IMG/VR virus record: IMGVR_UViG_3300025141_000327
Coordinates: 1-36,380 of that record
From: a virus
DNA: 36,380 bases
Direction: 5' to 3' (one strand)
Shown: positions 13,526 through 34,656 of the stretch, one piece after another
Layout: each line of letters begins with the position of its first letter
How positions within the stretch are numbered: position 1 is the first letter of the stretch
Program-made: the position numbers and the translations under genes
The notes under the pieces: generated by a model
Seen by the model: only the letters and a program-made list of their open reading frames with translations
Told to the model about the DNA's origin: nothing
Database searches by the model: none

Positions 13526-15009
13526 TGAGAAAAATACTCGGGCCTCCGGGAACAGGGAAAACAACACGTCTCTTACACTACGCTCGAACTTTTCTTAAAC
13601 TCGGGACTCCTCTAGATAGGATAGGATATTTTGCTTTTACTAAAAAAGCTGCTGGTGAAGCTCGGGAAAGAATGCTCGACCAAAATCCAAATATTAGCGA
13701 AAAACAATTAAAACATTTTAGAACTTTACATTCCCTGGCGTTTTGGAAACTAGGAATGAAGAAAAGTGAAGTTATGCAGGATGAACACTATGAAGACATA
13801 GGCAGAAGTCTAGGAATAGAAGTAACTGTTTATTCTAATGGAGAAGAGAAGACTGGCTTTGTGGACTCTGATAGTGAATATTTTAATATAATTAATGCTG
13901 CTCGCATCAAAGAAATACCTATCGAAGAAGAATACAATACCGATATGTATTCCCAAGATTTAGATAAAAATTTATTATATATTTTAAGAGATGAGCTAGA
14001 CAATTATAAAAAATCTTTTCACCTTAAAGATTTCACCGACATGATCGAAAAATTCATTGTGTCAGAATTGTGTCCAAAATATGACGTTGTTTTCATTGAT
14101 GAAGCACAGGATTTATCCCCTATTCAATGGAAGATGTTTGAAACTCTTAAGAAAAATTCCAAATATGTTATCTTAGCGGGCGATGACGATCAAGCGATTT
14201 ATGGCTGGGCGGGTGCAGATGTAAAGAGATTTCAACAAGAACCGGCAAAAGAAATAGTGTTACCACAATCTTATAGAGTTCCTAGATTGATTCAACATAT
14301 TGCTGATAATATTCTGAGTAGAATACCGGATAAACGGAGATTAAAAAAAGAATGGAAAGCAAGAAATGAAGAAGGATCCATACATCCTGTTACGTCTATT
14401 GAAGATGTTCCCTTACATGAAGGAAAGTGGTTAGTGTTGGCTAGATATAATGACAAATTAATAAAACTTAAACCCATTCTCAGAGATATGGGAATTTACT
14501 TTGAATATAAGAATAGAAAGAGTTATAAAACTCTTCTGTATGATGCGATTCAAAATTATACACGCTGGACTCAAGGATCCCAACTATCCATTTCTGAGTG
14601 TAAAGATTTGTTCGAATATTTTGGTAAAGAATTTCCAGGAAAGGAAGAAAGACTTTATGATTTAAGAGAATTTGGCTATAGCCACACTCAACGTTGGTTT
14701 GAAGTTTTTGAAACTGAACCTGAAGATAGTCTCTATATTCGTGACATGTTACAAAGTGGAGAAGAATTATCTAAAGAAGCTAGAGTAAAACTATCAACGA
14801 TTCACGCCGCTAAGGGAGGTGAAGCTGAAAATGTTTTACTTATTTTAGATAATACCAAAACTATCAGGCAGGCTATTGAAAAAAGTCCTGATAAAGAGGA
14901 TGAGGAAAACCGAACCTGGTATGTGGGCGTCACACGTACTAAACAAAATTTATATATCATGGCGGCAAAAAAGGAGGACAAAGGATATGACATCGAAAGT
15001 ATACAATAA
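13522..15009 (+). CDS. UvrD/Rep-like superfamily 1 helicase
   Basis: A 495-residue SF1 helicase, probably the replicative or recombination helicase. Walker A GPPGTGKT is at residues 7-14, motif Ia at AFTKKAAGEAR, Walker B DEAQD at 193-197, motif III GDDDQAIYGWAGAD, motif IV PQSYRVP, motif V STIHAAKGGEAENVLL and motif VI WYVGVTRTKQNLY. It is shorter than bacterial UvrD (about 720 residues), lacking parts of the 1B/2B domains, as usual for phage versions. Two tandem ATG codons (13522, 13525) overlap the primase stop. The end overlaps the DUF3310 gene. Confidence 0.92.
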   Translation: MMRKILGPPGTGKTTRLLHYARTFLKLGTPLDRIGYFAFTKKAAGEARERMLDQNPNISEKQLKHFRTLHSLAFWKLGMKKSEVMQDEHYEDIGRSLGIEVTVYSNGEEKTGFVDSDSEYFNIINAARIKEIPIEEEYNTDMYSQDLDKNLLYILRDELDNYKKSFHLKDFTDMIEKFIVSELCPKYDVVFIDEAQDLSPIQWKMFETLKKNSKYVILAGDDDQAIYGWAGADVKRFQQEPAKEIVLPQSYRVPRLIQHIADNILSRIPDKRRLKKEWKARNEEGSIHPVTSIEDVPLHEGKWLVLARYNDKLIKLKPILRDMGIYFEYKNRKSYKTLLYDAIQNYTRWTQGSQLSISECKDLFEYFGKEFPGKEERLYDLREFGYSHTQRWFEVFETEPEDSLYIRDMLQSGEELSKEARVKLSTIHAAKGGEAENVLLILDNTKTIRQAIEKSPDKEDEENRTWYVGVTRTKQNLYIMAAKKEDKGYDIESIQ

Positions 15010-15298
15010 ACAAATTGGAGGATCCCACTATAAAGATATGGTGATCCAGCCCAGTGAGTTTATAAACAAGAACAAATTGCTTTTTGCAGAAGGAAATGCT
15101 ATTAAATATATCTGCAGGCACGGACATAAAGGAGAGGTACAAGATCTAGAAAAGGCTAAACATTATATTGATATGATAATTGAAAGAGATTACGGCCCTC
15201 GAGAAAGTTGGATAGATGGGTACAATAAATGGAAAAAGCTTAAGGATAAAGGAGTCGTTAGCGACAAAGTAAAACTTGGAGATTTAAAGAAATTATGA
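14987..15298 (+). CDS. DUF3310-family protein
   Basis: A 103-residue protein with the DUF3310 signature: GGSHYKDMVIQP near the N-terminus, then NAIKYICRHGHKG and DLEKAKHYIDMII. Family members are common in phages and are sometimes annotated as nucleotide kinases, but the reaction is not established by any motif here. The start is the ATG at 14987 because an AAGGAGG site lies 9 bases upstream; the open frame further upstream (from 14876) is antiphase read-through of the helicase gene. It overlaps the helicase end by 23 bases and ends one base before the next ATG. Confidence 0.82.
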   Translation: MTSKVYNKQIGGSHYKDMVIQPSEFINKNKLLFAEGNAIKYICRHGHKGEVQDLEKAKHYIDMIIERDYGPRESWIDGYNKWKKLKDKGVVSDKVKLGDLKKL

Positions 15299-18108: not shown

Positions 18109-18190
18109 AAAAATAATAGAGACCATTTGTTGGCCATGGACTAAATTTGTTAAATGGCTAGCTGATGGATTACCTAAAAGAAAAAAATGA
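18101..18190 (+). CDS. 29-residue basic amphipathic peptide
   Basis: A tiny gene with a GAGG site before its ATG, overlapping the upstream gene by 8 bases and the downstream gene by 4 (ATGA). The product, MIKKIIETICWPWTKFVKWL followed by a PKRKK tail, is an amphipathic helix with Trp/Lys faces and a basic end, suited to lie on a membrane. Function unknown; the double coupling to its neighbours argues that it is translated. Confidence 0.55.
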   Translation: MIKKIIETICWPWTKFVKWLADGLPKRKK

Positions 18191-18312
18191 CGAAGTGTAA
18201 AAATTGTGGCTGTGATTGTCATTGTAATGTTAAAGAACACAGCGATCTCTACGGGATCTGTGATTGTAATGTCTGTGAACATGAGCTAGAAGAGTGTGAA
18301 GTATGCCAGTAG
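18187..18312 (+). CDS. 41-residue Cys-rich (metallothionein-like) peptide
   Basis: The start overlaps the preceding stop as ATGA, implying coupled translation. The 41-residue product has ten Cys, clustered as CKNCGCDCHC at residues 4-13, then CDCNVC at 25-30 and CEVC at 37-40, plus two His and many acidic residues. The density of CxC and CxxC pairs is what metal-cluster proteins (metallothioneins) or double zinc knuckles show. Function is inferred as metal binding only. It overlaps the next gene by 10 bases. Confidence 0.6.
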   Translation: MTKCKNCGCDCHCNVKEHSDLYGICDCNVCEHELEECEVCQ

Positions 18313-18416
18313 AAGAAAAACAAACTTGCAACATGCATACCAAAGAAAAAGAAAAATCAGGTACATGTTGCCAGGTAAAAAACGAAGAAGAAAAACAAGA
18401 GGAAACAAATGAATAA
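18303..18416 (+). CDS. 37-residue charged peptide
   Basis: A microgene nested in the overlap ladder: its ATG lies 10 bases inside the Cys-rich gene and its stop lies 8 bases inside the lipoprotein gene. The product is Lys/Glu rich with three Cys (CNMH and TCCQ) and no hydrophobic segment. No family recognised. It may be a real peptide or mainly a translational bridge to the lipoprotein gene; the AAGAGG near its end serves as that gene's ribosome-binding site. Confidence 0.4.
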   Translation: MPVEEKQTCNMHTKEKEKSGTCCQVKNEEEKQEETNE

Positions 18417-18570
18417 ATTATTTTTAATGCTTGCCTTGCTATTTGCATTAAGCGCCTGCTCAATAGGCCAAAAATGCACCTACACACAGGATGGAACTAA
18501 ACTTTCATCATGGGTATGGTTCTATGGTAGCGAAAAACCGATTGATTTAGATAAAAACAATTGTAACTAA
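18409..18570 (+). CDS. Small outer-membrane-type lipoprotein
   Basis: A 53-residue precursor with a type II signal peptide: MNKLFLMLALLFALSAC, with lipobox LSAC and the lipidated Cys17. The mature part is about 37 residues (SIGQKCTYTQDGTKLSSWVW...), with further Cys23 and Cys52 that may form a disulfide in the periplasm. Small phage lipoproteins can be Rz1-like outer-membrane spanins or superinfection-exclusion factors. No inner-membrane spanin partner is obvious next to it and the lysis genes are 10 kb away, so exclusion or envelope modification is at least as likely. Confidence 0.65.
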   Translation: MNKLFLMLALLFALSACSIGQKCTYTQDGTKLSSWVWFYGSEKPIDLDKNNCN

Positions 18571-18587
18571 AGGGTTCATGAAAATTG

Positions 18588-24039: not shown

Positions 24040-24190
24040 TTGGAAAGAGAAATACGAGAAAGCACAGGCTAAGTGTGATCAGTTGCAACGACAAGTTGAT
24101 CGATATTTCAAAGAAAATAATAATCTCTATAATAGAATTGCTAAACTCACCGAAGATAAACTTCAGGAAGCTAGGAAAAGTGGTCTGTGA
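24020..24190 (+). CDS. 56-residue coiled-coil peptide
   Basis: A charged, almost entirely helical peptide (YEKAQAKCDQLQRQVDRY, IAKLTEDKLQEARK) with heptad spacing, likely a homodimeric coiled coil; no TM segment. Overlaps the lipoprotein gene by 20 bases and the endonuclease gene by 4 (GTGA). Function unknown. Confidence 0.5.
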   Translation: MTTEENNWKEKYEKAQAKCDQLQRQVDRYFKENNNLYNRIAKLTEDKLQEARKSGL

Positions 24191-24588
24191 GAATTATGAG
24201 CGCTACCGAGCGCGCGTATGTGGCTGGGATTATTGATGGAGAAGGATGTATAGAATTTAAATGGACCAATCGTATACGCAGAGATCGAAAAGGAATTCCA
24301 ACTTACCGGACGTTGATCGTTCGCTTAGAAGTTCCCCAGGTCGATGGTCGACTGATCGATTACCTGATGGAGACCGTCAAGGAGGGATGCCGAGACATCA
24401 AACGTTATCCCAAGAACCCGACCTATCAGGACCAACATCGTTGGCGAGTGGGTTATCATGGCGTCTACCGAGTGCTCAAGCAGGTCTACCCCTATTTAAT
24501 TGTAAAAAAGGAAAAAGCAAAACTTGTAGTTGATCATTATGACAAAAAATTTAGTAAAAAAACTTTTGGAAAGGGGAAATTTGGCTAA
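24187..24588 (+). CDS. LAGLIDADG-family endonuclease (single motif)
   Basis: A 133-residue protein with one LAGLIDADG motif, AYVAGIIDGEGCIEF (residues 11-25), including the acidic metal-binding residue, followed by the alternating beta strands of the saddle-shaped homing endonuclease fold (LIVRLEVPQVD, HRWRVGYHGVYRVL, YLIVKKEKAKLV). One motif implies a homodimer. There is no intron or intein around it, so it is free-standing: a homing endonuclease, or one recruited for recombination or host DNA cutting. Start GTG 24187 overlaps the previous stop; ATG 24196 is the alternative. From here base composition turns more GC-rich. Confidence 0.8.
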   Translation: MRIMSATERAYVAGIIDGEGCIEFKWTNRIRRDRKGIPTYRTLIVRLEVPQVDGRLIDYLMETVKEGCRDIKRYPKNPTYQDQHRWRVGYHGVYRVLKQVYPYLIVKKEKAKLVVDHYDKKFSKKTFGKGKFG

Positions 24589-25797: not shown

Positions 25798-26012
25798 TAA
25801 AAAGAATTCACGTTAACATGCACAAGATCCGCTTCAACAAGAAGCACGGAACCAATGATCCTGTCCTGACGGTAAAGACGGGCCGCTCGAACCGCTATGC
25901 TCACAACGTAGAGATACTAGGACCCAGCAAAGTGATCTACCGGCCAGAGAAACCTCTGTCCTGCGGAGCAAGAGTCTGGATTGAAACGGATAGCGCAGTT
26001 AAAATTTTATGA
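25794..26012 (+). CDS. Conserved small beta-rich protein
   Basis: A 72-residue basic, beta-rich protein (IHVNMHKIRFNKKHGTNDPV, KTGRSNRYAHNVEILGPSKV, CGARVWIETDSAV). I recall proteins of this kind as common small neighbours of PD-(D/E)XK exonuclease genes in marine phages; the function is unknown. It overlaps both neighbours by 4 bases (ATGA). Confidence 0.6.
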   Translation: MIKRIHVNMHKIRFNKKHGTNDPVLTVKTGRSNRYAHNVEILGPSKVIYRPEKPLSCGARVWIETDSAVKIL

Positions 26013-26749
26013 AATGGAATAAACGATTCATCTACCCGAAGTCCCAACGATCCCTGATTCAGGGCAAACGGCACTATGACATCTCAAGTACCCAGACTAA
26101 GCTACCGAGTGTGACGACTATTATTTCCGCAACTCAGTCGGACGAGAAGCGACAGAGTCTAGCGGCGTGGAGAGCACGACTCGGGGCTCAGGCTGCAGAC
26201 CGGGTCCGAGACATTGCAGCGCTTCGAGGCACGGCGATGCACACGTTTCTGGAGGCGTATGTTCAGGGCACCGGGCACAAGGACCTGACGTCGGTCGGGA
26301 AAGAAGCGGAACCTATGGCGCAAAAGATTATCGAAGCAGGGCTCGGGGACCTGGAAGAAATATGGGGGAGTGAGGTCACGTTGTATTATCCGGACCTCTA
26401 TGCAGGGGCCACGGATGTTGTAGGAATCTACAACGGGCGTGAAAGTATAATAGACTTCAAACAAACCAACAAGCCCAAAAGAAGGGAATGGATAGAAGAC
26501 TATTTTATCCAATTAGGAGCCTACGCAATGGCCCATAACTACGTCTATAATACCAAGATTCAGTCTGGAATTATTCTAATGTGTTCTAAAGATAAATTTT
26601 TTCAGAAGTTTGAAGTATCGGACAAGGAATTTGTTGGTTATCAGCACGCATTCCTGAAGAAAGTAGAACAATATTATAGGAATTGTAACCAGAACAAAGA
26701 GGATACAAACTACAAAAATGAAGAGATAACCGAGGAAATTAGCCATTAA
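26009..26749 (+). CDS. PD-(D/E)XK exonuclease (Cas4/RecB/MGME1-like)
   Basis: A 246-residue nuclease of the PD-(D/E)XK superfamily, RecB-like branch. Motifs in order: LRGTAMHTFLE with His78 (residues 72-82), E122 in the WGSEVTLYY strand, GATDVV with Asp136, and IIDFKQ with Asp149 and Lys151, then a QLGAYAMA helix (residues 168-175) typical of the RecB-like QhxxY motif. It probably digests DNA ends for recombination or host DNA breakdown. Mid-gene codons are GC-rich (26150-26420) compared with the 3' end. It closes the long operon; a repeat-rich gap follows. Confidence 0.82.
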   Translation: MKWNKRFIYPKSQRSLIQGKRHYDISSTQTKLPSVTTIISATQSDEKRQSLAAWRARLGAQAADRVRDIAALRGTAMHTFLEAYVQGTGHKDLTSVGKEAEPMAQKIIEAGLGDLEEIWGSEVTLYYPDLYAGATDVVGIYNGRESIIDFKQTNKPKRREWIEDYFIQLGAYAMAHNYVYNTKIQSGIILMCSKDKFFQKFEVSDKEFVGYQHAFLKKVEQYYRNCNQNKEDTNYKNEEITEEISH

Positions 26750-26818
26750 TTTGACCTTACCCTCTGTATACCCTTTTTTCAATGAAATAAAAAAATTTTT
26801 TTTATTTTTTTTCAAAAG

Positions 26819-26838
26819 TGGTTACAATGGGTACAAAA
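26819..26838. repeat. Degenerate decamer pair
   Basis: TGGTTACAAT followed by GGGTACAAAA, related to the perfect decamers at 26891-26920. Confidence 0.5.
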
Positions 26839-26853
26839 GCTAGAAGTATTATA

Positions 26854-26867
26854 TACCAACACTTATT
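26854..26867. repeat. 14-bp direct repeat, copy 1
   Basis: TACCAACACTTATT, identical to 26979-26992; a shorter related copy (TACCAACAACTTA) is at 27020-27032. Confidence 0.75.
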
Positions 26868-26890
26868 CGCTCGTTTTTGTATCTTTTGGT

Positions 26891-26920
26891 TGGATACAAT
26901 GGGATACAATTGGATACAAT
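26891..26920. repeat. Three tandem decamers (KGGATACAAT)
   Basis: Three consecutive 10-bp units, TGGATACAAT, GGGATACAAT and TGGATACAAT, differing only at the first base. The period equals one helical turn, so a protein could bind all three on one DNA face. Confidence 0.8.
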
Positions 26921-26978
26921 TTGAAAATAAGCATTGATTACCAAGGCTTATTTAAGCAAAAATACTATTATCGTTATG

Positions 26979-26992
26979 TACCAACACTTATT
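26979..26992. repeat. 14-bp direct repeat, copy 2
   Basis: TACCAACACTTATT, identical to the copy at 26854-26867, 125 bp away; same orientation. Confidence 0.75.
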
Positions 26993-27098
26993 TCACTATA
27001 CCTTTCAAAAAGCTAGCAATACCAACAACTTAAGGGACGCGCGCACATGATTCACTCTTTTTATTTTCCATTTTATAAGGGGGAGGGTATACACTAGT

Positions 27099-27383
27099 AT
27101 GTTCCGGAAGAAATCTAAATACAAACATGTCTCCATCAACAAGAAGAAGTATTACTTCTATAAAATCTCATGGCTGGATATCACCGCAGATGGTGGGCAC
27201 GCGACAGCGGAGGAGTTTGACAAGTTTGAATGTTCTAAGATGGTGACCTTTGCTTATGTGTATAAGAAAACTAAAAAGTTTTTATGGACGTTCGCTAGTT
27301 ACGATCAAAAAGATGAAGCGTATTCTGATAGAAATATATTTCCAATTAAATGTATTACCAAGATGGAGAAGTTAGATGTTTGA
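27099..27383 (+). CDS. Conserved small hypothetical protein
   Basis: A 94-residue alpha/beta protein with aromatic and acidic residues (YYFYKISWLDITADGGHATA, EFDKFECSKMVTFAYVYKK, KFLWTFASYDQKDEAY, NIFPIKCITKMEKLDV). I recall proteins of this kind in marine phages but know no function. The ATG follows a purine-rich GGGGGAGGG tract at a rather long distance. It overlaps the next gene by 8 bases. Confidence 0.65.
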   Translation: MFRKKSKYKHVSINKKKYYFYKISWLDITADGGHATAEEFDKFECSKMVTFAYVYKKTKKFLWTFASYDQKDEAYSDRNIFPIKCITKMEKLDV

Positions 27384-27534
27384 TGAAGCCGAGTTTCCGG
27401 TAGAACTTGACTGGTTAAGTGAAGAAAAGTATAACCTGATGAAGGAGAAACATAATAATATGGCAAAGAAAAAAAAGAAAAAAGCTAAAGCTAAAAAGAA
27501 GAAAATCAAATCTAAAAAGAAAAATAAAAGATAG
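27376..27534 (+). CDS. 52-residue protein with poly-Lys tail
   Basis: An acidic first half (FDEAEFPVELDWLSEEKYNL) and a second half made almost only of Lys with a few Ala, Ile and Ser. The tail resembles histone H1-like C-termini and would bind DNA strongly; a DNA-condensing role is inferred. It overlaps the upstream gene by 8 bases. Its stop directly abuts the stop of the convergent small terminase gene (27534/27535), leaving no room for a terminator. Confidence 0.55.
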   Translation: MFDEAEFPVELDWLSEEKYNLMKEKHNNMAKKKKKKAKAKKKKIKSKKKNKR

Positions 27535-28095
27535 TTAAGATGTGGAATCCGGATCGATTATTTGTGGCGATGATGGTAATTTTTTTACTATTGGCTCTTT
27601 ATTGTCTGACTCTGATTCCTCATTAGAGCTTAAAAGCTTTTTAGCTTCTACTACTTTCTCGTTCTTCTCTTTGATTGTTCGCATCCTTTCATAGAGTTGA
27701 TCGAGATTGAGGTCGTCAATCTTCCCGTGTCTCACAATCTTTTGATCAATATAATATCCAGCTACTTTGCCTCGAGCTATTTCAGTTGTAGCGGCAGCCG
27801 CTAGATTCCTGTTGTCTTTTTTACCTCGGTCCCTAATCTTTCCGAGCTCTTCTAGATGGCCTTCAAAGCTGATGCCGTATTTCTCTCTTACTTCCTCTCT
27901 GAGATTACTGATGTAGGCACAGACTAGTGGAAATCTATTTGGATTAGTCAGTCGTGACCCTTCCTTTGTCCAGTCGCTGTAGCCTGCTATTTTGGCTGCC
28001 TCACCTTTAGAGATAGGGCTTCCTTCGACTCCGTAGACGATGAGTTGGGCAAATTTCATTTGCCTCGGGGTTAGTTCTTTTTGTGGTCCTGGCAT
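27535..28095 (-). CDS. terS: Terminase small subunit
   Basis: A 186-residue DNA-packaging recognition subunit. The N-terminal helix-turn-helix region shows the terminase small-subunit pattern: LTPRQMKFAQLIVYG, then KGEAAKIAGYS (residues 9-40), with a helical oligomerisation part following (EVREKYGISFEGHLEELGKI, AAAATTEIARGKVAGYY) and a Ser/Pro/Asp-rich tail for binding the large subunit. It lies on the minus strand, more than 6 kb from the plus-strand large subunit, whereas in most phages the two are adjacent. It shares a 39-bp spacer with the divergent gene at 28135. Confidence 0.82.
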   Translation of the reverse strand: MPGPQKELTPRQMKFAQLIVYGVEGSPISKGEAAKIAGYSDWTKEGSRLTNPNRFPLVCAYISNLREEVREKYGISFEGHLEELGKIRDRGKKDNRNLAAAATTEIARGKVAGYYIDQKIVRHGKIDDLNLDQLYERMRTIKEKNEKVVEAKKLLSSNEESESDNKEPIVKKLPSSPQIIDPDSTS

Positions 28096-29676: not shown

Positions 29677-29931
29677 TTATTTTATACTATCGATTTGTGT
29701 CAAGATTGTGTCCCGGGGTATAAAGCTTGCAGCTTGGGCCCTTGGCCCGTTCCGGGGTCCACGCTTGCGCGTTGCCGGAATTCTCAAGCTTGGGGGCTGG
29801 AGCTTTTGCCCATTGATCCTGATCCGGGGGCCAAACTTGGTCCAGGCGTTGCTCATAATCTTGAGCTCTGCCGCAATGGTCAACAGCTGGGCGCTTGAAG
29901 CGCCTTTAATCTCTATTGTAAATTTTTTCAT
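29677..29931 (-). CDS. Small phage protein with repeat-derived C-terminal extension
   Basis: An 84-residue protein. Residues 1-46 (MKKFTIEIKGASSAQLLTIA, ELKIMSNAWTKFGPRIRING) look like a real small domain. After residue 47 the frame runs into GC-rich GCTTG-type repeats and the tail (Pro/Arg-rich, PATRKRGPRNGPRAQ) appears to be their translation. I place the start at 29931; immediately upstream lies a GGGAGGGCCCACCC repeat, which on the transcript forms the 5' leader. Confidence 0.6.
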   Translation of the reverse strand: MKKFTIEIKGASSAQLLTIAAELKIMSNAWTKFGPRIRINGQKLQPPSLRIPATRKRGPRNGPRAQAASFIPRDTILTQIDSIK

Positions 29932-30067
29932 TATGGGAGGGCCCACCCGCTTGAGGGCTTGAAGCCTTATTCTTTTGTTTTATTTCTTTGAAAAATTTTT
30001 CGCAGCTGCGCACGTACGCCGGGCTCAGGTCCCGGCGGTCGTGTATAAAGTAATTTAATAAATTGTT
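29906..30067 (-). pseudogene. Possible decayed or non-ATG small gene
   Basis: After the stop at 30078 a frame reads NNLLNYFIHDRRDLSPAYVR then SCEKFFKEIKQKNK, with protein-like composition, and runs into the GGGAGGGCCCACCC repeat. It has no ATG or GTG start between 30078 and the plausible domain start. A GC-rich 7-bp hairpin (CGCCGGG/CCCGGCG, 30013-30033) lies inside. It may be a small gene that lost its start, or one using a rare start codon. Low certainty. Confidence 0.3.
29935..29948. repeat. GGGNGGGCCCACCC repeat, copy 2
   Basis: GGGAGGGCCCACCC directly upstream of the ATG at 29931 (minus), followed by CGCTTGAGGGCTTGAAGCC. Confidence 0.75.
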
Positions 30068-30077
30068 ATGTTTAGAT

Positions 30078-30356
30078 CTAATCAAGCAGCACCATATATT
30101 GTTTTGGAAAATGGCGTTTGAACCAGTCCAGGCCCAGGCGCATTGTAGTGTATTCTTCAAAGCGTTCCGCTCCAATAATGGTATCATAAACACTGGCCGC
30201 ATATCCCGGCAACGTGCACTCTTCACCGCCAAATCTATTTTTAATTTTTACTTCCTTCTCTGTATAGATGGCGCAATTAAATGGCACGCTTACTTTTTGG
30301 CCGTTCCAGTCAATTGTTTTGGGCTCTAATTTTTCGCCCCACTTATTTTTTTTCAT
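30078..30356 (-). CDS. Conserved small phage protein
   Basis: A 92-residue protein: MKKNKWGEKLEPKTIDWNGQ, then SVPFNCAIYTEKEVKIKNRF, GGEECTLPGYAASVYDTI, GLDWFKRHFPKQYMVLLD. The pattern recurs in marine phages as I recall it; function unknown. It starts inside the end of the upstream gene (14-base overlap), so it is translated from the same message as 30343-30492. Confidence 0.65.
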   Translation of the reverse strand: MKKNKWGEKLEPKTIDWNGQKVSVPFNCAIYTEKEVKIKNRFGGEECTLPGYAASVYDTIIGAERFEEYTTMRLGLDWFKRHFPKQYMVLLD

Positions 30357-30492
30357 TTTTATCTCTTTCCTTTAGTTCCTCTTCTATTTTATTGATTGTG
30401 CTTTGGAGGTTGTTACTCTCCCTAAGCAGCGCAATTAATTGACCACGTAAATAAGCGTCATCCAATGCGTCTTTCATAAATGTATCTTTCAT
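30343..30492 (-). CDS. 49-residue helical peptide
   Basis: A short, wholly helical product (MKDTFMKDALDDAYLRGQLI, LLRESNNLQSTINKIEEELK) with coiled-coil character. Its ATG lies 7 nt after the TAGGAT -10 box of its own promoter, so the message is predicted to be leaderless; no ribosome-binding site is present. The ATTTAAATT upstream repeats nearly exactly at 30910-30918 before another gene. Overlaps the next gene by 14 bases. Confidence 0.6.
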   Translation of the reverse strand: MKDTFMKDALDDAYLRGQLIALLRESNNLQSTINKIEEELKERDKNEKK

Positions 30493-30499
30493 AATTTAA

Positions 30500-30528
30500 A
30501 TCCTATCAAATCCCATAACCATTGTCAA
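30500..30528 (-). promoter_or_regulatory. Leaderless-type promoter
   Basis: Minus strand: TTGACA (30523-30528), 17-nt spacer, TAGGAT (30500-30505), then 7 nt and ATG at 30492. The -35 box overlaps the end of a 24-bp inverted-repeat arm, so structure or protein binding there could control it. Confidence 0.7.
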
Positions 30529-30611
30529 GTTTAAACCCTGATCTCTGGACGTTGATCAACTTATTACTTAGGTTATTAACATACCGACCAGAGATCAGGG
30601 TTTAAACTTGA
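30525..30611. repeat. Perfect 24-bp inverted repeat with 39-nt loop
   Basis: Arms 30525-30548 and 30588-30611 are exact reverse complements (outer end TCAAGTTTAAACC). The loop holds a 10-bp palindrome GTTGATCAAC (30551-30560). One arm overlaps a promoter -35 box and the other overlaps the stop codon of 30602-30760. No T-run follows, so it is not a normal terminator; it could be a protein-binding site, a recombination site or the remnant of a short mobile element. Confidence 0.85.
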
Positions 30612-30760
30612 ACCCGGGTTACTATAAAATATTTACCCTTTGGCTTTAATTCTTTTAAAGCTTGCAGTTTTCTTTCCGCCGCTTGTAAGGTCGGAAATTC
30701 TTCGTTGGCCATGGTTTCTGTGTAAAAATGGTCGTGTGTGTTTTCTAGTATAAAGTACAT
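30602..30760 (-). CDS. 52-residue hypothetical protein
   Basis: A small alpha/beta protein: MYFILENTHDHFYTETMANE, then a helix (LQAAERKLQALKELKPKGK) and a strand (YFIVTRVQV). An AAAGGAAA site precedes the ATG, which lies 16 bases inside the upstream gene. Its last two codons and stop lie in the inverted-repeat arm. No family recognised. Confidence 0.58.
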   Translation of the reverse strand: MYFILENTHDHFYTETMANEEFPTLQAAERKLQALKELKPKGKYFIVTRVQV

Positions 30761-30909
30761 TTTTTCCTTTCTATTTTTAATTGTGTCTTCTTCGTTCGAT
30801 TTTTTCTTAAATGTAATATATCAGAATCAAAGGCCCTGGTCGGGTCTTGATTAATGGTAATATAACCATCATACAATTTAAGTTTTTTCTTTTTTATTTT
30901 TTCTTTCAT
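30745..30909 (-). CDS. 54-residue basic protein
   Basis: A Lys-rich N-terminus (MKEKIKKKKLKLYDGYITIN) followed by DPTRAFDSDILHLRKNRTKK. It is first after a promoter whose -10 box ends 7 nt before its ATG, without a ribosome-binding site, so a leaderless start is predicted. Overlaps the next gene by 16 bases. No family recognised; nucleic-acid binding is plausible from charge. Confidence 0.55.
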   Translation of the reverse strand: MKEKIKKKKLKLYDGYITINQDPTRAFDSDILHLRKNRTKKTQLKIERKKCTLY

Positions 30910-30916
30910 AATTCAA

Positions 30917-30945
30917 ATCCTATCAAATCCCAGAACCCCGGTCAA
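30917..30945 (-). promoter_or_regulatory. Leaderless-type promoter
   Basis: Minus strand: TTGACC (30940-30945), 17-nt spacer, TAGGAT (30917-30922), 7 nt, then ATG at 30909. The spacer 3' end, -10 box and post-box bases are nearly identical to the promoter at 30500-30528. Confidence 0.7.
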
Positions 30946-30955
30946 GGAATTATTT

Positions 30956-31033
30956 TAGTAATATTCTGTAACATTATGTTACTTTACTTCTCCCAGAAAA
31001 TCTTATATACTAGGCCGGTGGTTGGGGATGGCG
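30956..31033. repeat. 78-bp direct repeat, copy 1
   Basis: Matches 31513-31590 at 75 of 78 positions by eye. Contains the dyad GTAACATTATGTTAC and CTCCCAGAAAATCTTATATA. Confidence 0.9.
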
Positions 31034-31046
31034 GTTAATATATACT

Positions 31047-31060
31047 GGGCGGGCCCACCC
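31047..31060. repeat. GGGNGGGCCCACCC repeat, copy 3
   Basis: GGGCGGGCCCACCC preceded by AATATATACT. Confidence 0.8.
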
Positions 31061-31080
31061 GGATAAAGTCAAGTAACAAA

Positions 31081-31110
31081 TTATTACAGGATATTACAGG
31101 ATATTATAGG
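31081..31110. repeat. Three tandem decamers (ATATTACAGG type)
   Basis: TTATTACAGG, ATATTACAGG, ATATTATAGG in direct succession, right before repeat copy 4. Confidence 0.75.
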
Positions 31111-31150
31111 GAGGGCCCACCCCTAAAAAATATACTGGGCGGGCCCACCC
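31109..31150. repeat. Paired GGGNGGGCCCACCC repeats, copies 4 and 5
   Basis: GGGAGGGCCCACCC (31109-31122) and GGGCGGGCCCACCC (31137-31150) joined by CTAAAAAATATACT. The same pair with a 15-nt linker recurs at 31616-31658. Confidence 0.85.
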
Positions 31151-31239
31151 GCTTGAAACCTAATTGAATCTGCGTGCGCGCGCGCTTGAGGCTTGAGAGC
31201 TTGGAGACTTATTGATATGTTTTATTTTTTTATTGGCCC

Positions 31240-31257
31240 GGGCGCCTTGCGGCGCCC
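31240..31257. other. 7-bp GC hairpin downstream of 31270-31452
   Basis: GGGCGCC-TTGC-GGCGCCC. It lies 13 bases beyond the minus-strand stop; the bases that follow in that direction are A-rich rather than T-rich, so intrinsic termination leftward is doubtful. Confidence 0.55.
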
Positions 31258-31269
31258 TGAGCTGAAGAT

Positions 31270-31452
31270 CTACTTCTTCTTAGAAGCTAAATCTTTATTG
31301 ATCTTGTTCACGGCGTAATTGCAGCCGAAAGCAAAACCGAGCCAAAGGAGCCTTCGCTCTTCTGGCAGGCTGTGGCCCTGTACGTACTCTTGGAATTCCT
31401 TCTCTGTCTCGAAGGTTCTGAAGAGTCCGGAGGGTTGATAACGTGAAGACAT
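31270..31452 (-). CDS. 60-residue hypothetical protein
   Basis: MSSRYQPSGLFRTFETEKEF, then EYVQGHSLPEERRLLWLGFA, FGCNYAVNKINKDLASKKK: an amphipathic C-terminal helix that could associate with a membrane, and a basic end. I place the start at ATG 31452, 6 nt after a TATAGT -10 box (leaderless); the frame stays open to 31494 but that would cross the promoter. No family recognised. Confidence 0.58.
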   Translation of the reverse strand: MSSRYQPSGLFRTFETEKEFQEYVQGHSLPEERRLLWLGFAFGCNYAVNKINKDLASKKK

Positions 31453-31458
31453 AATCCC

Positions 31459-31487
31459 ACTATATCCCAGGTCCAGGAATAATGCAA
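31459..31487 (-). promoter_or_regulatory. Leaderless-type promoter
   Basis: Minus strand: TTGCAT (31482-31487), 17-nt spacer ending CTGGGA, TATAGT (31459-31464), 6 nt, then ATG at 31452. Confidence 0.62.
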
Positions 31488-31512
31488 GTAACAAAATATT
31501 ACGAAATGTTAC

Positions 31513-31590
31513 TAGTAATATTCTGTAACATTATGTTACTTTACTTCTCCCAGAAAATCTTATATACTAGGTCGGTGGCTGGGGTTGGCG
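31513..31590. repeat. 78-bp direct repeat, copy 2
   Basis: Pairs with 30956-31033 (three mismatches, all near the 3' end). The same strand and the same position relative to the minus-strand promoter upstream of a leaderless gene. Confidence 0.9.
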
Positions 31591-31615
31591 CAGGGCTTAT
31601 AGCTAAAAATTTTTC

Positions 31616-31658
31616 GGGCGGGCCCACCCTAAAAAAAATATACTGGGAGGGCCCACCC
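31616..31658. repeat. Paired GGGNGGGCCCACCC repeats, copies 6 and 7
   Basis: GGGCGGGCCCACCC (31616-31629) and GGGAGGGCCCACCC (31645-31658) joined by TAAAAAAAATATACT. Confidence 0.85.
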
Positions 31659-31670
31659 CCTCCCTTTTGG

Positions 31671-31690
31671 CGCCCGCCCGAGGGCGGGCG
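31671..31690. other. 9-bp GC hairpin
   Basis: CGCCCGCCC-GA-GGGCGGGCG, a perfect 9-bp stem with two unpaired bases; the left half recurs at 33678 and 34626. Confidence 0.7.
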
Positions 31691-31704
31691 CTTGTAGCCT
31701 GATT

Positions 31705-31725
31705 AAAAAAGCCCCCTTCGGGGGC
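31705..31725 (-). terminator. Intrinsic terminator (minus strand)
   Basis: GCCCCCTTCGGGGGC forms a stable stem (31711-31725). Read leftward it is followed by six T (A-run 31705-31710). It would end transcripts of the minus-strand genes upstream of it, such as 31941-32291. Confidence 0.75.
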
Positions 31726-31838
31726 TTGGGACCTTATTGATATTTTTTATTTTTTGCCTTTACATGAGTTGAGGACCATAAAGGCTAATGAAATCCTGGC
31801 CAAGCAATCTTTAGCATGCTCAACATATTGTATAATTA

Positions 31839-31907
31839 CTTGACCCCAGATCCCTGCACAAAGTATACAGGATTTTAACCCAGCTGGCGCAAGGATCAGG
31901 GGTCAAG
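31839..31907. repeat. 15-bp inverted repeat
   Basis: Arms CTTGACCCCAGATCC (31839-31853) and GGATCAGGGGTCAAG (31893-31907) match at 14 of 15 positions. The GATCAGGG core is shared with the 24-bp inverted repeat at 30525-30611. Confidence 0.7.
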
Positions 31908-31931
31908 CTCAGGCGACTTGCATCGCCTGAG
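31908..31931. other. 9-bp hairpin after 31941-32291
   Basis: CTCAGGCGA and TCGCCTGAG with a 6-nt loop, 9 bases past the minus-strand stop. No T-run follows; it may protect or stall the 3' end ahead of the terminator at 31705. Confidence 0.6.
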
Positions 31932-31940
31932 ATCTTAAAT

Positions 31941-32291
31941 TTACTTGTACTTTTTAGGCATATCCCCTGTTCTTTCTAGAACATGGAATACATCAGTCAC
32001 AATCGGATGACCAGACATATCGAGTTTAGAAGTGTGATACTTATTAAAGATTCTCCAAATATATTGGACCATCTTTTTTCTCACAGCTACCGCCCGACCT
32101 TCTCCCCAGTCATTCTCTACGTGTTCCAGATAAATATTATTGTACCCACTTTGATGCTTTTTAACCGCATCGTAAAGAGCATTCATAATAATTTCTCTAG
32201 CAATCTCACTATTTGACCAAGGTGTATTATCACCATTGTCAAAATGCTTTTGATCAGCACGTGTGCCATTGTTAGTATAATATGATAACAT
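31941..32291 (-). CDS. Hypothetical protein of the minus-strand accessory block
   Basis: A 116-residue protein: MLSYYTNNGTRADQKHFDNG, NSEIAREIIMNALYDAVKKH, GRAVAVRKKMVQYIWRIFNK, SGHPIVTDVFHVLERTGDM. It looks globular and mostly helical, with no recognised motif. An AGGAG site lies 7 bases before the ATG, so unlike its neighbours it has a normal leader. Function unknown. Confidence 0.65.
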   Translation of the reverse strand: MLSYYTNNGTRADQKHFDNGDNTPWSNSEIAREIIMNALYDAVKKHQSGYNNIYLEHVENDWGEGRAVAVRKKMVQYIWRIFNKYHTSKLDMSGHPIVTDVFHVLERTGDMPKKYK

Positions 32292-32440
32292 ATTATTCTC
32301 CTGTGTATGTCTGTATCTTTACCTACAGATTTGGTAATCTTTCAAAAGAAAGAATACATATTTTAACAGAAAATCCTATACTAATCAAATCACAAAATGT
32401 TACCAAATGTTACAACTCAACCTCAGGTTGTGGCTCAAGT

Positions 32441-32530
32441 TTAATCGAACCAAACTTCTTTAATAATCATATACAACAAAAAGCAAAAACCTAATGTTGG
32501 TATGAGAAAAATGCTATCAACTATATCCAT
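32441..32530 (-). CDS. 29-residue TM peptide
   Basis: MDIVDSIFLIPTLGFCFLLY followed by MIIKEVWFD: one membrane helix. Its ATG overlaps the end of the neighbouring TM peptide gene by 10 bases, the kind of coupling seen across this genome. Function unknown. Confidence 0.4.
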   Translation of the reverse strand: MDIVDSIFLIPTLGFCFLLYMIIKEVWFD

Positions 32531-32634
32531 AATATTACCACCAAAGCCAAAGCGATTGCAAAAATGTTTAAAGCCCAAAGCCACTTCGGCCAAACATTAA
32601 TCATCTCTTTCAATGGTTTTCCATATATCAACAT
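32521..32634 (-). CDS. 37-residue TM peptide
   Basis: MLIYGKPLKEMINVWPKWLW then a hydrophobic helix (ALNIFAIALALVVILWI). The polar N-terminal half and C-terminal membrane helix suggest a tail-anchored peptide. A GGAATATATAAA stretch precedes the ATG. It likely works with, or beside, the overlapping 29-residue TM peptide. Confidence 0.42.
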   Translation of the reverse strand: MLIYGKPLKEMINVWPKWLWALNIFAIALALVVILWI

Positions 32635-32663
32635 TTTATATATTCCTTATCTTTCATCATAAT

Positions 32664-32867
32664 TTATTTAGTTATAAAATCGTTAATCGGAGTAACGGCA
32701 GATGTTTCAATAATAGATTTTACTCCATCATTAATAATTCTATTTGCTAATAATTTTTGAGCTTTTTCTATTGCTTCTTTTCGCTCATCTTTATTAGAAG
32801 AATCTTTAACATCAATTATTTCCGACCAACCTTGCGGTTTTAATTGAAAATTAATTAATAGTTTCAT
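32664..32867 (-). CDS. Small hypothetical protein, first minus-strand gene
   Basis: A 67-residue protein: a beta start (MKLLINFQLKPQGWSEIIDV) and a basic helix (NKDERKEAIEKAQKLLANRI). An AGAAAGG site lies before the ATG, in a 19-nt leader after the promoter at 32887-32915. No family recognised. It is transcribed divergently from the cassette gene at 32977. Confidence 0.6.
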   Translation of the reverse strand: MKLLINFQLKPQGWSEIIDVKDSSNKDERKEAIEKAQKLLANRIINDGVKSIIETSAVTPINDFITK

Positions 32868-32886
32868 AATTTACCTTTCTGTACTT

Positions 32887-32915
32887 ATCCTACTATATCC
32901 CAGTCTCATTGTCAA
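32887..32915 (-). promoter_or_regulatory. Sigma70-like promoter with normal leader
   Basis: Minus strand: TTGACA (32910-32915), 17-nt spacer, TAGGAT (32887-32892). The -10 box and the CTGGGATA part of the spacer match the leaderless promoters, but here the ATG is 19 nt away and has AGAAAGG. Confidence 0.7.
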
Positions 32916-32940
32916 CAAGAATAATTATTAATTTACACTA

Positions 32941-33003
32941 TTGACATATATAGGGTTTTAATATATAATCCCAGATATGTATAACAATAAAGGAGAAAGT
33001 AAA
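32941..33003 (+). promoter_or_regulatory. Cassette promoter-leader, copy 1
   Basis: TTGACA, 17-nt spacer, TATAAT (consensus boxes), then CCCAGAT and ATGTATAACAATAAA, followed by GGAGAAAG and a second in-frame ATG at 33004. The same element occurs at 33781 and 34228. Confidence 0.85.
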
Positions 33004-33270
33004 ATGGATAAAACAATCCTAATCGTAAAGGTAACTAAATATGAAACAATACCTGATAGTTACTCAATCGAAACAACTGCTGATAATTTAGAAGAAGCAA
33101 GTAAGTATCAAGTTGCTTTAAAAGCTCTAAATAAAAGTAGCAATGTAACTTATGAGTTGTTCAATGGATTTGGGCAATTCGAAGTTGAGGAAATAAAGAA
33201 GGTAACAGAAAAAAGGCGTCTGGTTGATTACCATACAAGCAATAGGAAGGTAGTTAATGACAATAAATAA
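32977..33270 (+). CDS. Cassette gene A, hypothetical protein
   Basis: An 88-residue core (MDKTILIVKVTKYETIPDSY, ETTADNLEEASKYQVALKAL, FGQFEVEEIKKVTEKRRLVD) starting at ATG 33004 with GGAGAAAG 5 bases upstream. Starting instead at ATG 32977, 7 nt after the consensus -10 box, adds nine residues MYNNKGESK. The beta-helix-beta look of a small domain is visible; no family recognised. It overlaps the next gene by 14 bases. Confidence 0.62.
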   Translation: MYNNKGESKMDKTILIVKVTKYETIPDSYSIETTADNLEEASKYQVALKALNKSSNVTYELFNGFGQFEVEEIKKVTEKRRLVDYHTSNRKVVNDNK

Positions 33271-33490
33271 CGCCATCTTTTATATCAGATACTATGCCGG
33301 CAAGCATGGGGAAATAATCGAGAGAAAGGGACAACTTGATGGCATTGCAAAAGGGGAATACACTTGCAACAAAGGCTATCAATGTTTTAATTATCTTGAT
33401 ATTTGGCAAACTGAAAAATTCGGTAAGCCACAATATAGAACAGCGTCCGTAAGTTGGGAGATGTCCAGCTTACCTAGTCGCATAAATTAA
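33257..33490 (+). CDS. Hypothetical protein coupled to cassette gene A
   Basis: A 77-residue protein (MTINNAIFYIRYYAGKHGEI, QLDGIAKGEYTCNKGYQCFN, DIWQTEKFGKPQYRTASVSW) with a beta-rich, aromatic composition, as in small DNA-mimic-sized or binding proteins. Starts 14 bases inside the upstream gene with AGGAAGG near the ATG. Two hairpins follow its stop. No family recognised. Confidence 0.55.
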   Translation: MTINNAIFYIRYYAGKHGEIIERKGQLDGIAKGEYTCNKGYQCFNYLDIWQTEKFGKPQYRTASVSWEMSSLPSRIN

Positions 33491-33519
33491 CGAATAACTT
33501 ATCCCAATAAGTTATACAG

Positions 33520-33545
33520 GTCAGGGCGGAGTAATCTGCCCTGAC
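33520..33545 (+). other. 8-bp hairpin after cassette gene A
   Basis: GTCAGGGC and GCCCTGAC with a 10-nt loop. The following TAAATAT is only weakly T-rich, so termination is uncertain. Confidence 0.6.
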
Positions 33546-33652
33546 TAAATATCCTGTCAACCCCTAATCCCACAATATCCTATGTTATTATTGCATAGCT
33601 CATCACATAATGTTACCAAATATTTCATCACATAATGTTACCAAATATTACT

Positions 33653-33666
33653 GGGAGGGCCCACCC
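33653..33666. repeat. GGGNGGGCCCACCC repeat, copy 8
   Basis: GGGAGGGCCCACCC preceded by CCAAATATTACT. Confidence 0.8.
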
Positions 33667-33672
33667 CCTCCC

Positions 33673-33708
33673 TTTGGCGCCCGCCCATGGGCGGGGCTTC
33701 GCCCCGCC
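33673..33708. repeat. 36-bp GC-rich exact repeat, copy 1
   Basis: Identical to 34621-34656 (TTTGGCGCCCGCCCATGGGC then the GGGGCTTCGCCCCGCC hairpin). The first 14 bases are shared with 31666-31679. Confidence 0.9.
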
Positions 33709-33717
33709 TTTATCTTT
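33690..33717 (+). terminator. Intrinsic terminator (plus strand)
   Basis: GGCGGGG-CTTCG-CCCCGCC followed by TTTATCTTTGTT. It would end the transcript of cassette A before the cassette B promoter. Confidence 0.72.
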
Positions 33718-33780
33718 GTTCCTCCGCTCAGCAACCCGCTTTGCGGGTCGCTTCGCTCCGGGATTTATTTTTCCTAACTA

Positions 33781-33843
33781 TTGACTCCTAAATTTTTCTC
33801 CTGTAAAATCCCAGATATGTATAACAATAAAGAAAGGGATAAA
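33781..33843 (+). promoter_or_regulatory. Cassette promoter-leader, copy 2
   Basis: TTGACT, 17-nt spacer, TAAAAT, CCCAGAT, ATG at 33817, then GAAAGGGA and ATG 33844. From the -10 box through ATG 33844 it differs at one base from the copy before 34264. Confidence 0.85.
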
Positions 33844-34155
33844 ATGGAACCAGTAAAAAAAGAAGAACGTAAAGAACAACCTTTACTTAATTTAAAAGTA
33901 GAGGTTGATAGTTGGAGACACGGATATCATGAAAGATTAAATTGGGAGCTTATGAGCTTCATTGATCTTGAGGACGTTTTCCGAACTATTTTACCTGAAG
34001 AAAAAGGTAAATATAAAAATGATCAAGTGCCATACAATATCGCTGGAGCAAGAGCGAAAAGATTTATGGAACGACTCAAGGCATACATCATAGAGAAGAC
34101 CGAAGATGATGATGAGGATTTTGATTGGTCAGAATGGAATACATATCGTGGTTAA
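33817..34155 (+). CDS. Cassette gene B, hypothetical protein
   Basis: A 103-residue core from ATG 33844 (MEPVKKEERKEQPLLNLKVE, HGYHERLNWELMSFIDLEDV, NIAGARAKRFMERLKAYIIE) with an acidic C-terminus (TEDDDEDFDWSEW); 112 residues if it starts at the leaderless ATG 33817 (MYNNKERDK added). Helical and acidic at the end; no family recognised. It has its own promoter upstream and a strong hairpin downstream, as in a moron. Confidence 0.65.
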   Translation: MYNNKERDKMEPVKKEERKEQPLLNLKVEVDSWRHGYHERLNWELMSFIDLEDVFRTILPEEKGKYKNDQVPYNIAGARAKRFMERLKAYIIEKTEDDDEDFDWSEWNTYRG

Positions 34156-34166
34156 ATAATCCCTAA

Positions 34167-34194
34167 CCCTGGCCCCCTGTAACAGGGGCCAGGG
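34167..34194 (+). other. Strong hairpin after cassette gene B
   Basis: CCCTGGCCCCCTG and CAGGGGCCAGGG, with one bulged C, around TAA. The preceding TAATCCCTAACCCTGGC is shared with the hairpin after cassette gene C. No T-run follows. Confidence 0.75.
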
Positions 34195-34227
34195 GAAAAC
34201 CTCGATGAACTTTATTTTCCCTAACTA

Positions 34228-34290
34228 TTGACTTCTACCTAAATCTCCTGTAAAATCCCAGGTATGTATAACAATAAAGAAAGGGATAAA
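34228..34290 (+). promoter_or_regulatory. Cassette promoter-leader, copy 3
   Basis: TTGACT, 17-nt spacer, TAAAAT, CCCAGGT, ATG at 34264, then GAAAGGGA and ATG 34291. Same layout as copies 1 and 2. Confidence 0.85.
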
Positions 34291-34533
34291 ATGAAAAAAA
34301 CAATAGCACTACTACAAAAACAACACGATGTGTTGGTCCAGGCCATCCAAACAATTGATGACCATTTTTATGCAATCAAACAGCCTAAAGAAATCCTGGA
34401 GCTGCGAGAAGCACTGGATAAAATACTAAATCATAGTGAGAATTTCTATGAGATAAAAGCAATTCAAGAAGATGCGGATCTTCTTAATTCAGAACTTAAA
34501 AAAGAACTAAAAGAACTAAAAGAATTAGGATAA
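34264..34533 (+). CDS. Cassette gene C, coiled-coil protein
   Basis: An 80-residue core from ATG 34291 (MKKTIALLQKQHDVLVQAIQ, IKQPKEILELREALDKILNH, LLNSELKKELKELKELG), or 89 residues from the leaderless ATG 34264 with MYNNKERDK in front. It is helical and ends in a Leu/Lys/Glu heptad repeat. Unrelated to the proteins of cassettes A and B apart from the shared N-terminal leader. Function unknown. Confidence 0.65.
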   Translation: MYNNKERDKMKKTIALLQKQHDVLVQAIQTIDDHFYAIKQPKEILELREALDKILNHSENFYEIKAIQEDADLLNSELKKELKELKELG

Positions 34534-34545
34534 GTAATCCCTAAC

Positions 34546-34570
34546 CCTGGCTCCCGCATCGGGGGCCAGG
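34546..34570 (+). other. Hairpin after cassette gene C
   Basis: CCTGGCTCCC and GGGGGCCAGG with loop GCATC (one wobble pair in RNA). Same TAATCCCTAACCCTGGC entry as the cassette B hairpin, with a different stem base at the loop side. Confidence 0.72.
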
Positions 34571-34602
34571 TGAGTCAAGTAACAATTTGTTACAGGTTAT
34601 TC

Positions 34603-34620
34603 GGGCGGGCCCCCCACCCC
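34603..34620. repeat. Variant GGGCGGGCCC repeat, copy 9
   Basis: GGGCGGGCCCCCCACCCC, preceded by AAGTAACAATTTGTTACAGG, the same GTAACA motif that precedes the copies at 31047-31122. Confidence 0.7.
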
Positions 34621-34656
34621 TTTGGCGCCCGCCCATGGGCGGGGCTTCGCCCCGCC
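34621..34656. repeat. 36-bp GC-rich exact repeat, copy 2
   Basis: Identical to 33673-33708. Here no T-run follows the hairpin (CCAGGGGTCCC instead), so a terminator function seems lost or absent upstream of the large terminase. Confidence 0.9.

Follow-up and report, generated by a model that had tools for sequence, protein, structure and literature searches.

The intergenic element and its gene neighborhood

The DNA analyzed here (the window) is a 36,380-base phage fragment, and the phage is related to the SAR11 pelagiphages HTVC023P and HTVC027P. SAR11 bacteria, the hosts of HTVC023P-type phages, are among the most abundant marine bacteria. The nearest named-phage matches of the window exonuclease are in seawater phage 023Pt_psg01 (psg01) and in Pelagibacter phages HTVC027P and HTVC023P, while the nearest one of the primase is in HTVC027P. 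The window, psg01, and HTVC027P share a regional gene order, in which replication genes on the + strand are followed by the exonuclease gene, a gap, a small basic ORF, and terS on the - strand. Two small + strand ORFs (27099-27534) separate the gap from terS in the window. A tRNA search found none. The features are:

11885-13525, + strand: archaeo-eukaryotic primase (AEP), the proposed iteron-binding initiator (PF22548, phrog_21866; models and fold matches)
13522-15009, + strand: SF1 (UvrD-like) helicase, which also tracks the iteron type
26009-26749, + strand: PD-(D/E)XK exonuclease, the upstream neighbor of the element (phrog_298, PF12705)
26750-27098: whole intergenic element, a candidate origin (gene-free gap; layout conserved across 52 distinct aligned elements)
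About 26785-26812: A/T tract (read from the sequence; poly-T or poly-A in relatives)
26819-26828 and 26829-26838, + strand: iterons 1 (TGGTTACAAT) and 2 (GGGTACAAAA), a degenerate pair in 10-bp phase
26839-26843, + strand: GCTAG, located after iteron 2 and ahead of the first ATACCAAC motif
26853-26872, + strand: fixed motif 1, ATACCAACACTTATTCGCTC (reverse-oriented counterpart in TGGCACA-type genomes)
26877-26883, - strand: inverted iteron, TTGTATC on the + strand (TTGTACC in B-type relatives, along with the direct copies)
26891-26900, 26901-26910, and 26911-26920, + strand: iterons 3 (TGGATACAAT), 4 (GGGATACAAT), and 5 (TGGATACAAT), with an exact 10-bp period
26925-26992: extra block with the dyad AAATAAGCATTG/CAAGGCTTATTT and the second TACCAACACTTATT (only some relatives have the block)
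27007-27032, + strand: fixed motif 2, AAAAAGCTAGCAATACCAACAACTTA (core reversed in the TGGCACA-type genomes L349 and L369)
27034-27046: GC-rich core GGGACGCGCGCAC (missing from L037, L040, and L042)
27087-27092, + strand: GTATAC, candidate -10 of a leaderless promoter just before the next ORF (conserved in relatives; putative function)
27099-27383, + strand: 94-aa basic protein, downstream of the element (phrog_25889)
27535-28095, - strand: terminase small subunit, TerS (phrog_51)

A preliminary description of this DNA had proposed a replication origin from the direct repeats and the A/T tract. All the repeats that it named are present at their coordinates, as confirmed by direct sequence reading of 26400-27500 and a repeat listing. 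The inverted iteron, the GCTAG words, the GC-rich core, and the terminal GTATAC pair had not been described. A second GCTAG is located at 27012, before fixed motif 2; GCTAG lies beside two of the ATACCAAC motifs. Two full copies of TACCAACACTTATT (26854-26867 and 26979-26992) are accompanied by partial ones at 26939 (TACCAAGGCTTATT) and 27019 (ATACCAACAACTTA). Each end of the gap has a GTATAC (26766 and 27087).

The repeats are far more frequent than expected by chance. The gap contained 15 repeated 9-mers and 8 repeated 10-mers, compared with 0.8 and 0.25 expected, and none of 2000 dinucleotide shuffles matched these counts. In the three-copy array with 10-bp phasing, 9 of 10 columns agreed, while the best of 2000 dinucleotide shuffles gave 7. 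Together there are three exact and two degenerate 10-bp steps of direct repeats at helical phase. The element is the densest iteron cluster of the window, with six sites from 26820, and the runner-up is a cluster of three sites in coding sequence at 15136. The element was likewise the densest cluster in all 21 AB-type records, and also in psg01, HTVC023P, and L421. The other clusters of at least three iteron sites in the 21 AB-type records were in coding sequence or just upstream of the element.

Three other points of the preliminary description were not borne out. The gap is not the largest one in the window, where larger ones are found at 18109-18584, 31495-31940, and 30910-31269. The A/T tract, which had been thought easily melted, does not rank among the window's least stable stretches. 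The GC-skew check proposed there showed no minimum of the cumulative skew at the element; in psg01, HTVC027P, and the window the skew climbed nearly steadily and tracked gene orientation.

Conservation of the element and diversity of the iteron words

We retrieved 80 exonuclease relatives, read their layout by eye, and aligned 52 distinct elements; iteron words were also assigned by eye. The element was present in dozens of relatives. In the group of the window, the order is an A/T tract, two direct iterons, ATACCAACACTTATTCGCTC, an inverted iteron, two to three direct iterons at approximately 10-bp phase, AAAAAGCTAGCAATACCAACAACTTAAGGG, and GACGCGCGC. The elements of the HTVC027P type, L629, and the L421 type follow a looser plan, having iterons with an A/T-rich stretch and, in most cases, a GC-rich end, and the two fixed motifs were not recognized together in them. 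In HTVC023P, a similar iteron cluster is located upstream of terS, yet the exonuclease gene is at 58.7 kb. In close relatives the repeats are found again next to the same genes, and distant ones have comparable clusters of other words. An absence of the repeats from close relatives, which the preliminary description had named as evidence against an origin, was not observed.

The iteron words differed among lineages, and each of them switched as a set: GG(A)TACAAT, TGTTACAA, GTGTTACAAT, TGGCACA, CTAGGAAAA, GGTRTCG, and TAAAATGTC. The window has GGATACAAT, while many relatives have GGTACAAT, with the inverted copy changed from TTGTATC to TTGTACC. The word is TGTTACAAT in L078-L083, GTGTTACAAT with TTTCAC variants in HTVC027P and four contigs, TGGCACA in psg01 and six contigs, CTAGGAAAA in HTVC023P, GGTGTCG or GGTATCG in L382, L421, and L422, and TAAAATGTC in L629. 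Two of the TGGCACA genomes, L349 and L369, retained both fixed motifs in reverse orientation (AGTGTTGGTAT; GTTGTTGGTATTGCTAGCTTTTTT) beside their TGGCACA iterons, indicating that the evolution of the fixed motifs is separate from that of the iterons.

Several local variants were also seen. Downstream of the exonuclease gene in L026 and L029, the ATACCAACACTTATTCGCTCGTTTTTGTATC half of the element is tandemly duplicated. In TGGCACA-type genomes (L003, 12728-13249; L349-L353; L358), the exonuclease gene and the element are separated by a gene for peptide deformylase or by other ORFs. HTVC023P (L346) has three 33-nt tandem repeats of CAAATCTTGAGAATACATACCGAAAATTTTTTG at 12469-12567, between terS and the next ORF.

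Association of the iteron word with replication genes

To ask which gene tracks the iteron word, homologs of 17 genes from up to 37 records were compared, and an AUC was computed for the identity of same-word over different-word pairs. The AUC was 1.00 for the primase, the helicase, and gene 11041, 0.996 for the exonuclease, 0.955 for the RHH protein, and 0.92 for PolA. The lowest primase identity within a word was 0.55 and the highest between words was 0.47. The separation was narrow for the helicase (0.51 versus 0.50) and gene 11041 (0.73 versus 0.71). The primase was also the best of the 17 genes in separating the A and B subtypes, with an AUC of 0.93 compared with 0.83 for the helicase and 0.64 for gene 11041. 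On quick trees, where at least seven changes of the word label are needed, the primase and the helicase required seven changes each, TerS 10, the LAGLIDADG protein 12, and the 94-aa protein 14. A first parsimony set did not contain L100 and the F and H words; these counts are from the fuller set. When A and B were merged, TerS required six changes with a minimum of six and was not rejected by parsimony, while the identity test rejects it.

L359 and L360 are natural swaps, in which an HTVC027P-like 94-aa gene and a foreign TerS are combined with a window-like primase and window-like iterons. The D- and E-type contigs were chosen by primase similarity with their iterons not known beforehand, and the matching word was found in all six contigs with a psg01-like primase and a readable element and in all four with an HTVC027P-like primase. 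Because of this choice, the high same-word primase identity of the D and E types is partly a consequence of how the contigs were picked.

Since the helicase, gene 11041, and (nearly) the exonuclease fit almost as well, the test does not single out the primase as the binder, and shared genome history of neighboring genes could explain much of the tracking. A possible exception to the link with the primase is L100, which has GGTACAA iterons and a window-like exonuclease but no primase gene on the contig. This contig starts inside a helicase gene that is 96% identical in DNA to that of L549. The primases of L549 and L556 share 88% identity, and the L556 element (L629) carries TAAAATGTC iterons. 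If L100 really has an L549-like primase, similar primases would occur with different iterons and the primase would not read the iterons. The L100 contig may represent a real mosaic, or its assembly may be chimeric. At approximately base 850 it has a sharp junction from an L549-like helicase end to an L371-like PolA (84%), which is either a recombination point or an assembly chimera. Our scans found no contig spanning the L100 replication block, only relatives of each part.

Other candidates were rejected as readers of the iterons. TerS and the 94-aa protein failed to track the word (AUC 0.60 and 0.72), and so did the LAGLIDADG protein at 24187-24588 (AUC 0.50). The RHH protein had been suggested for a binding test in the preliminary description, but its DNA-contacting strand KNVSLS is unchanged across different iterons. 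Moreover, L038 and L043 have different iteron subtypes and identical RHH proteins, and the TGGCACA genomes gave no RHH homolog. Only 11 of the retrieved records yielded the K-rich ("AT-hook") ORF. The LAGLIDADG-like protein (AYVAGIIDGEGCIEF), which nearly all relatives encode close to the exonuclease gene, is highly divergent and may be domesticated.

Domain structure of the primase

Residues 43-175 of the primase matched PF22548 (AEP-TOTE) with an E value of 4e-13, and D79, D81, and the residues of SKSGGLH were invariant or nearly so. The AlphaFold model had a pLDDT of 76.8 and a pTM of 0.49. Residues 1-219 of the model matched the CRISPR-associated Prim-Pol (CAPP) with a Z score of 19.7 (192 residues aligned, 3.4 Å). 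Pfam gave the AEP domain only, and no SF3 helicase was seen in the chain.

The C-terminal piece modelled alone had a pLDDT of 73.6, with values of about 72-92 over the core, and it is predicted to form a winged-helix-like domain. For residues 424-535 (approximate limits), winged-helix DNA binders made up most of the 12 best VIA matches, which were individually modest (Z of 7.7 or below). Among them were the SaPIBov1 replication initiator (Z 6.5, 91 residues aligned, 3.1 Å) and oriT-bound TcpK (Z 7.6, 90 residues aligned, 3.0 Å). A Foldseek search with this domain gave nothing below 0.001. The columns specific to the A or B subtype leaned weakly to residues 395-530 (12 of 27, P = 0.02), a region that was picked after viewing the model.

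Proposed function of the element

The set-wise change of the iteron word suggests that the iterons are bound by a factor of the phage, and the lineage tracking together with the domain structure points to the AEP primase as this factor. Because the spelling of the iterons shifts in step with the phage's own primase, the element is probably an origin. With moderate confidence, we propose that this gap serves as the replication origin in an HTVC023P-type pelagiphage. The AEP primase, whose gene is located 13 kb upstream, would bind the 10-bp-phased iterons, most likely via its C-terminal winged-helix-like domain. Arrays of the protein would flank the fixed ATACCAACACTTATT motif on either side, the duplex would open near the arrays, and the primase with the SF1 helicase would prime synthesis by the phage family A polymerase (PolA). 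The opening and priming at the element and the extension by PolA are proposed by analogy with P4 alpha and pRN1 ORF904 (PMC4234260) and with AEP fusions (PMC5862659). An origin stands as the best reading, as the preliminary description had it, but on other evidence; the skew, the stability of the A/T tract, and the RHH protein as a reader gave no support. In the literature covered, which was mostly outside subscription journals, we found no earlier description of a replication origin for this phage group. Inspection by eye gave no good match to host DnaA boxes near TTATTCGCTC.

A packaging site, a control region, and a T7-like promoter are all less likely than an origin. The element could be a transcription control region, with the iterons as operators for a phage regulator ahead of the ORFs at 27099-27534. 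Repeats can be operators, a conserved TATACA is located a few nucleotides before the next ATG, and HTVC027P depends on the host RNA polymerase (PMC12753301). However, the L005 group keeps the element with another gene downstream, at most two tiny genes would be commanded before the opposed terS, the word follows the replication genes and not the 94-aa gene, and we found no dedicated regulator that tracks the word; thus we regard this function as unlikely. A packaging start (pac or cos), at which the iterons would be TerS-binding boxes and the GC-rich core the cut site, is quite unlikely. The element does adjoin terS in nearly all relatives, even in HTVC023P with its moved exonuclease gene, the core resembles a cohesive-end site, and the TerS N-terminus looked helix-turn-helix-like when the alignment was inspected. 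But TerS proteins of same-word pairs were down to 20% identical and those of cross-word pairs up to 71%, the foreign TerS of L359 and L360 comes with window-like iterons, and the core is dispensed with in the three genomes listed above. Contig ends were found within 350 bp of the element in 7 of 37 contigs compared with 4.2 expected, all at different positions with no shared end, although a cos phage with contigs joined across the site could escape detection in this comparison. These scattered ends look like assembly breaks in repeats.

The element might also be an origin read by the helicase, the gene 11041 product, or another protein. This is very unlikely in our estimate: the first two have an AUC of 1.00 and L100 may break the link with the primase, but it is the primase that best follows the A/B subtypes and that combines a priming domain with a winged-helix-like C-terminus. 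As a transcript, the arms TTGTATC...GGATACAA could pair as a hairpin, and RNAalifold predicted a stem of nine pairs, in which column pair 94-107 changes from U-A to C-G in 8 of 18 sequences. This switch is the A/B iteron change itself, which also alters the direct copies outside the stem, most other pairs are invariant, there was no Rfam match, and the hairpin occurs only where iterons are inverted; a structured RNA or attenuator is therefore highly improbable. The sequence AATACCAACAACTTAAGGGA resembles a T7 promoter. The window had 11 matches with up to three mismatches, compared with 12.8 by chance. HTVC027P, a cultured relative, encodes no phage single-subunit RNA polymerase (PMC12753301). 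Since the motif was not enriched elsewhere and HTVC027P lacks such a polymerase, a T7-like promoter was rejected.

If the element is the origin bound by the primase, the start site and the initiator of HTVC023P-type phages would be named, natural primase-iteron pairs would be available for studying DNA recognition by an AEP primase, and origins and packaging genes would recombine separately in these phages. As a tentative extension, the AEP primase and its remote iterons may have co-diversified into about seven words, an initiator-origin code, while the terminase and neighboring genes were exchanged freely and a second factor, conserved and perhaps from the host, read the fixed ATACCAAC motifs.

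Comparison with known initiators

In phage lambda and at other iteron origins, a cluster of direct repeats and an A/T-rich stretch are read by a phage initiator, the O protein in lambda. The lambda repeats differ in being within the gene for O, a protein that is not a primase. ColE2-P9 is a plasmid with a short origin, and the likeness of its Rep to the window primase lies in the AEP fold. As cited in PMC5862659, ColE2-P9 Rep is a primase of the AEP superfamily and serves itself as the initiator at the origin that it binds.

Similar to the function proposed here, phage P4 alpha is a multifunctional primase that binds the ori repeats with a winged helix, followed by unwinding and priming (PMC4234260). 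Alpha combines a Toprim primase and an SF3 helicase in one chain, whereas in this phage the primase is an AEP, the SF1 helicase is a separate protein, and PolA is phage-encoded. The replicons of pRN1 (ORF904) and phage BIP-1 resemble the proposed system in their AEP primase, which has a C-terminal winged helix of the kind predicted here, and in a non-coding origin (PMC4234260). Their proposed origin, however, consists of a long stem-loop directly 3' of rep and has no iterons, and their protein contains an SF3 domain, while in the window phased iterons are located 13 kb from the primase gene, which has no long stem-loop beside it.

Other repeats in the window

Repeats were also seen elsewhere in the window. 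Three diverged copies of a 72-nt unit (32937-33008, 33777-33848, and 34224-34295) each precede a small ORF. They contain TTGAC and, at promoter spacing from it, a -10-like word rich in A/T, and are candidate early host-type promoters. Repeats of GGGAGGGCCCACCC and GGCGCCCGCCCATGGGCGGGGCTTCGCCC are located at 29931-34656, in a gene-poor stretch ahead of the large terminase gene. A 27-nt inverted repeat (30525-30551/30585-30611) is 96% complementary with a loop of 33 nt.
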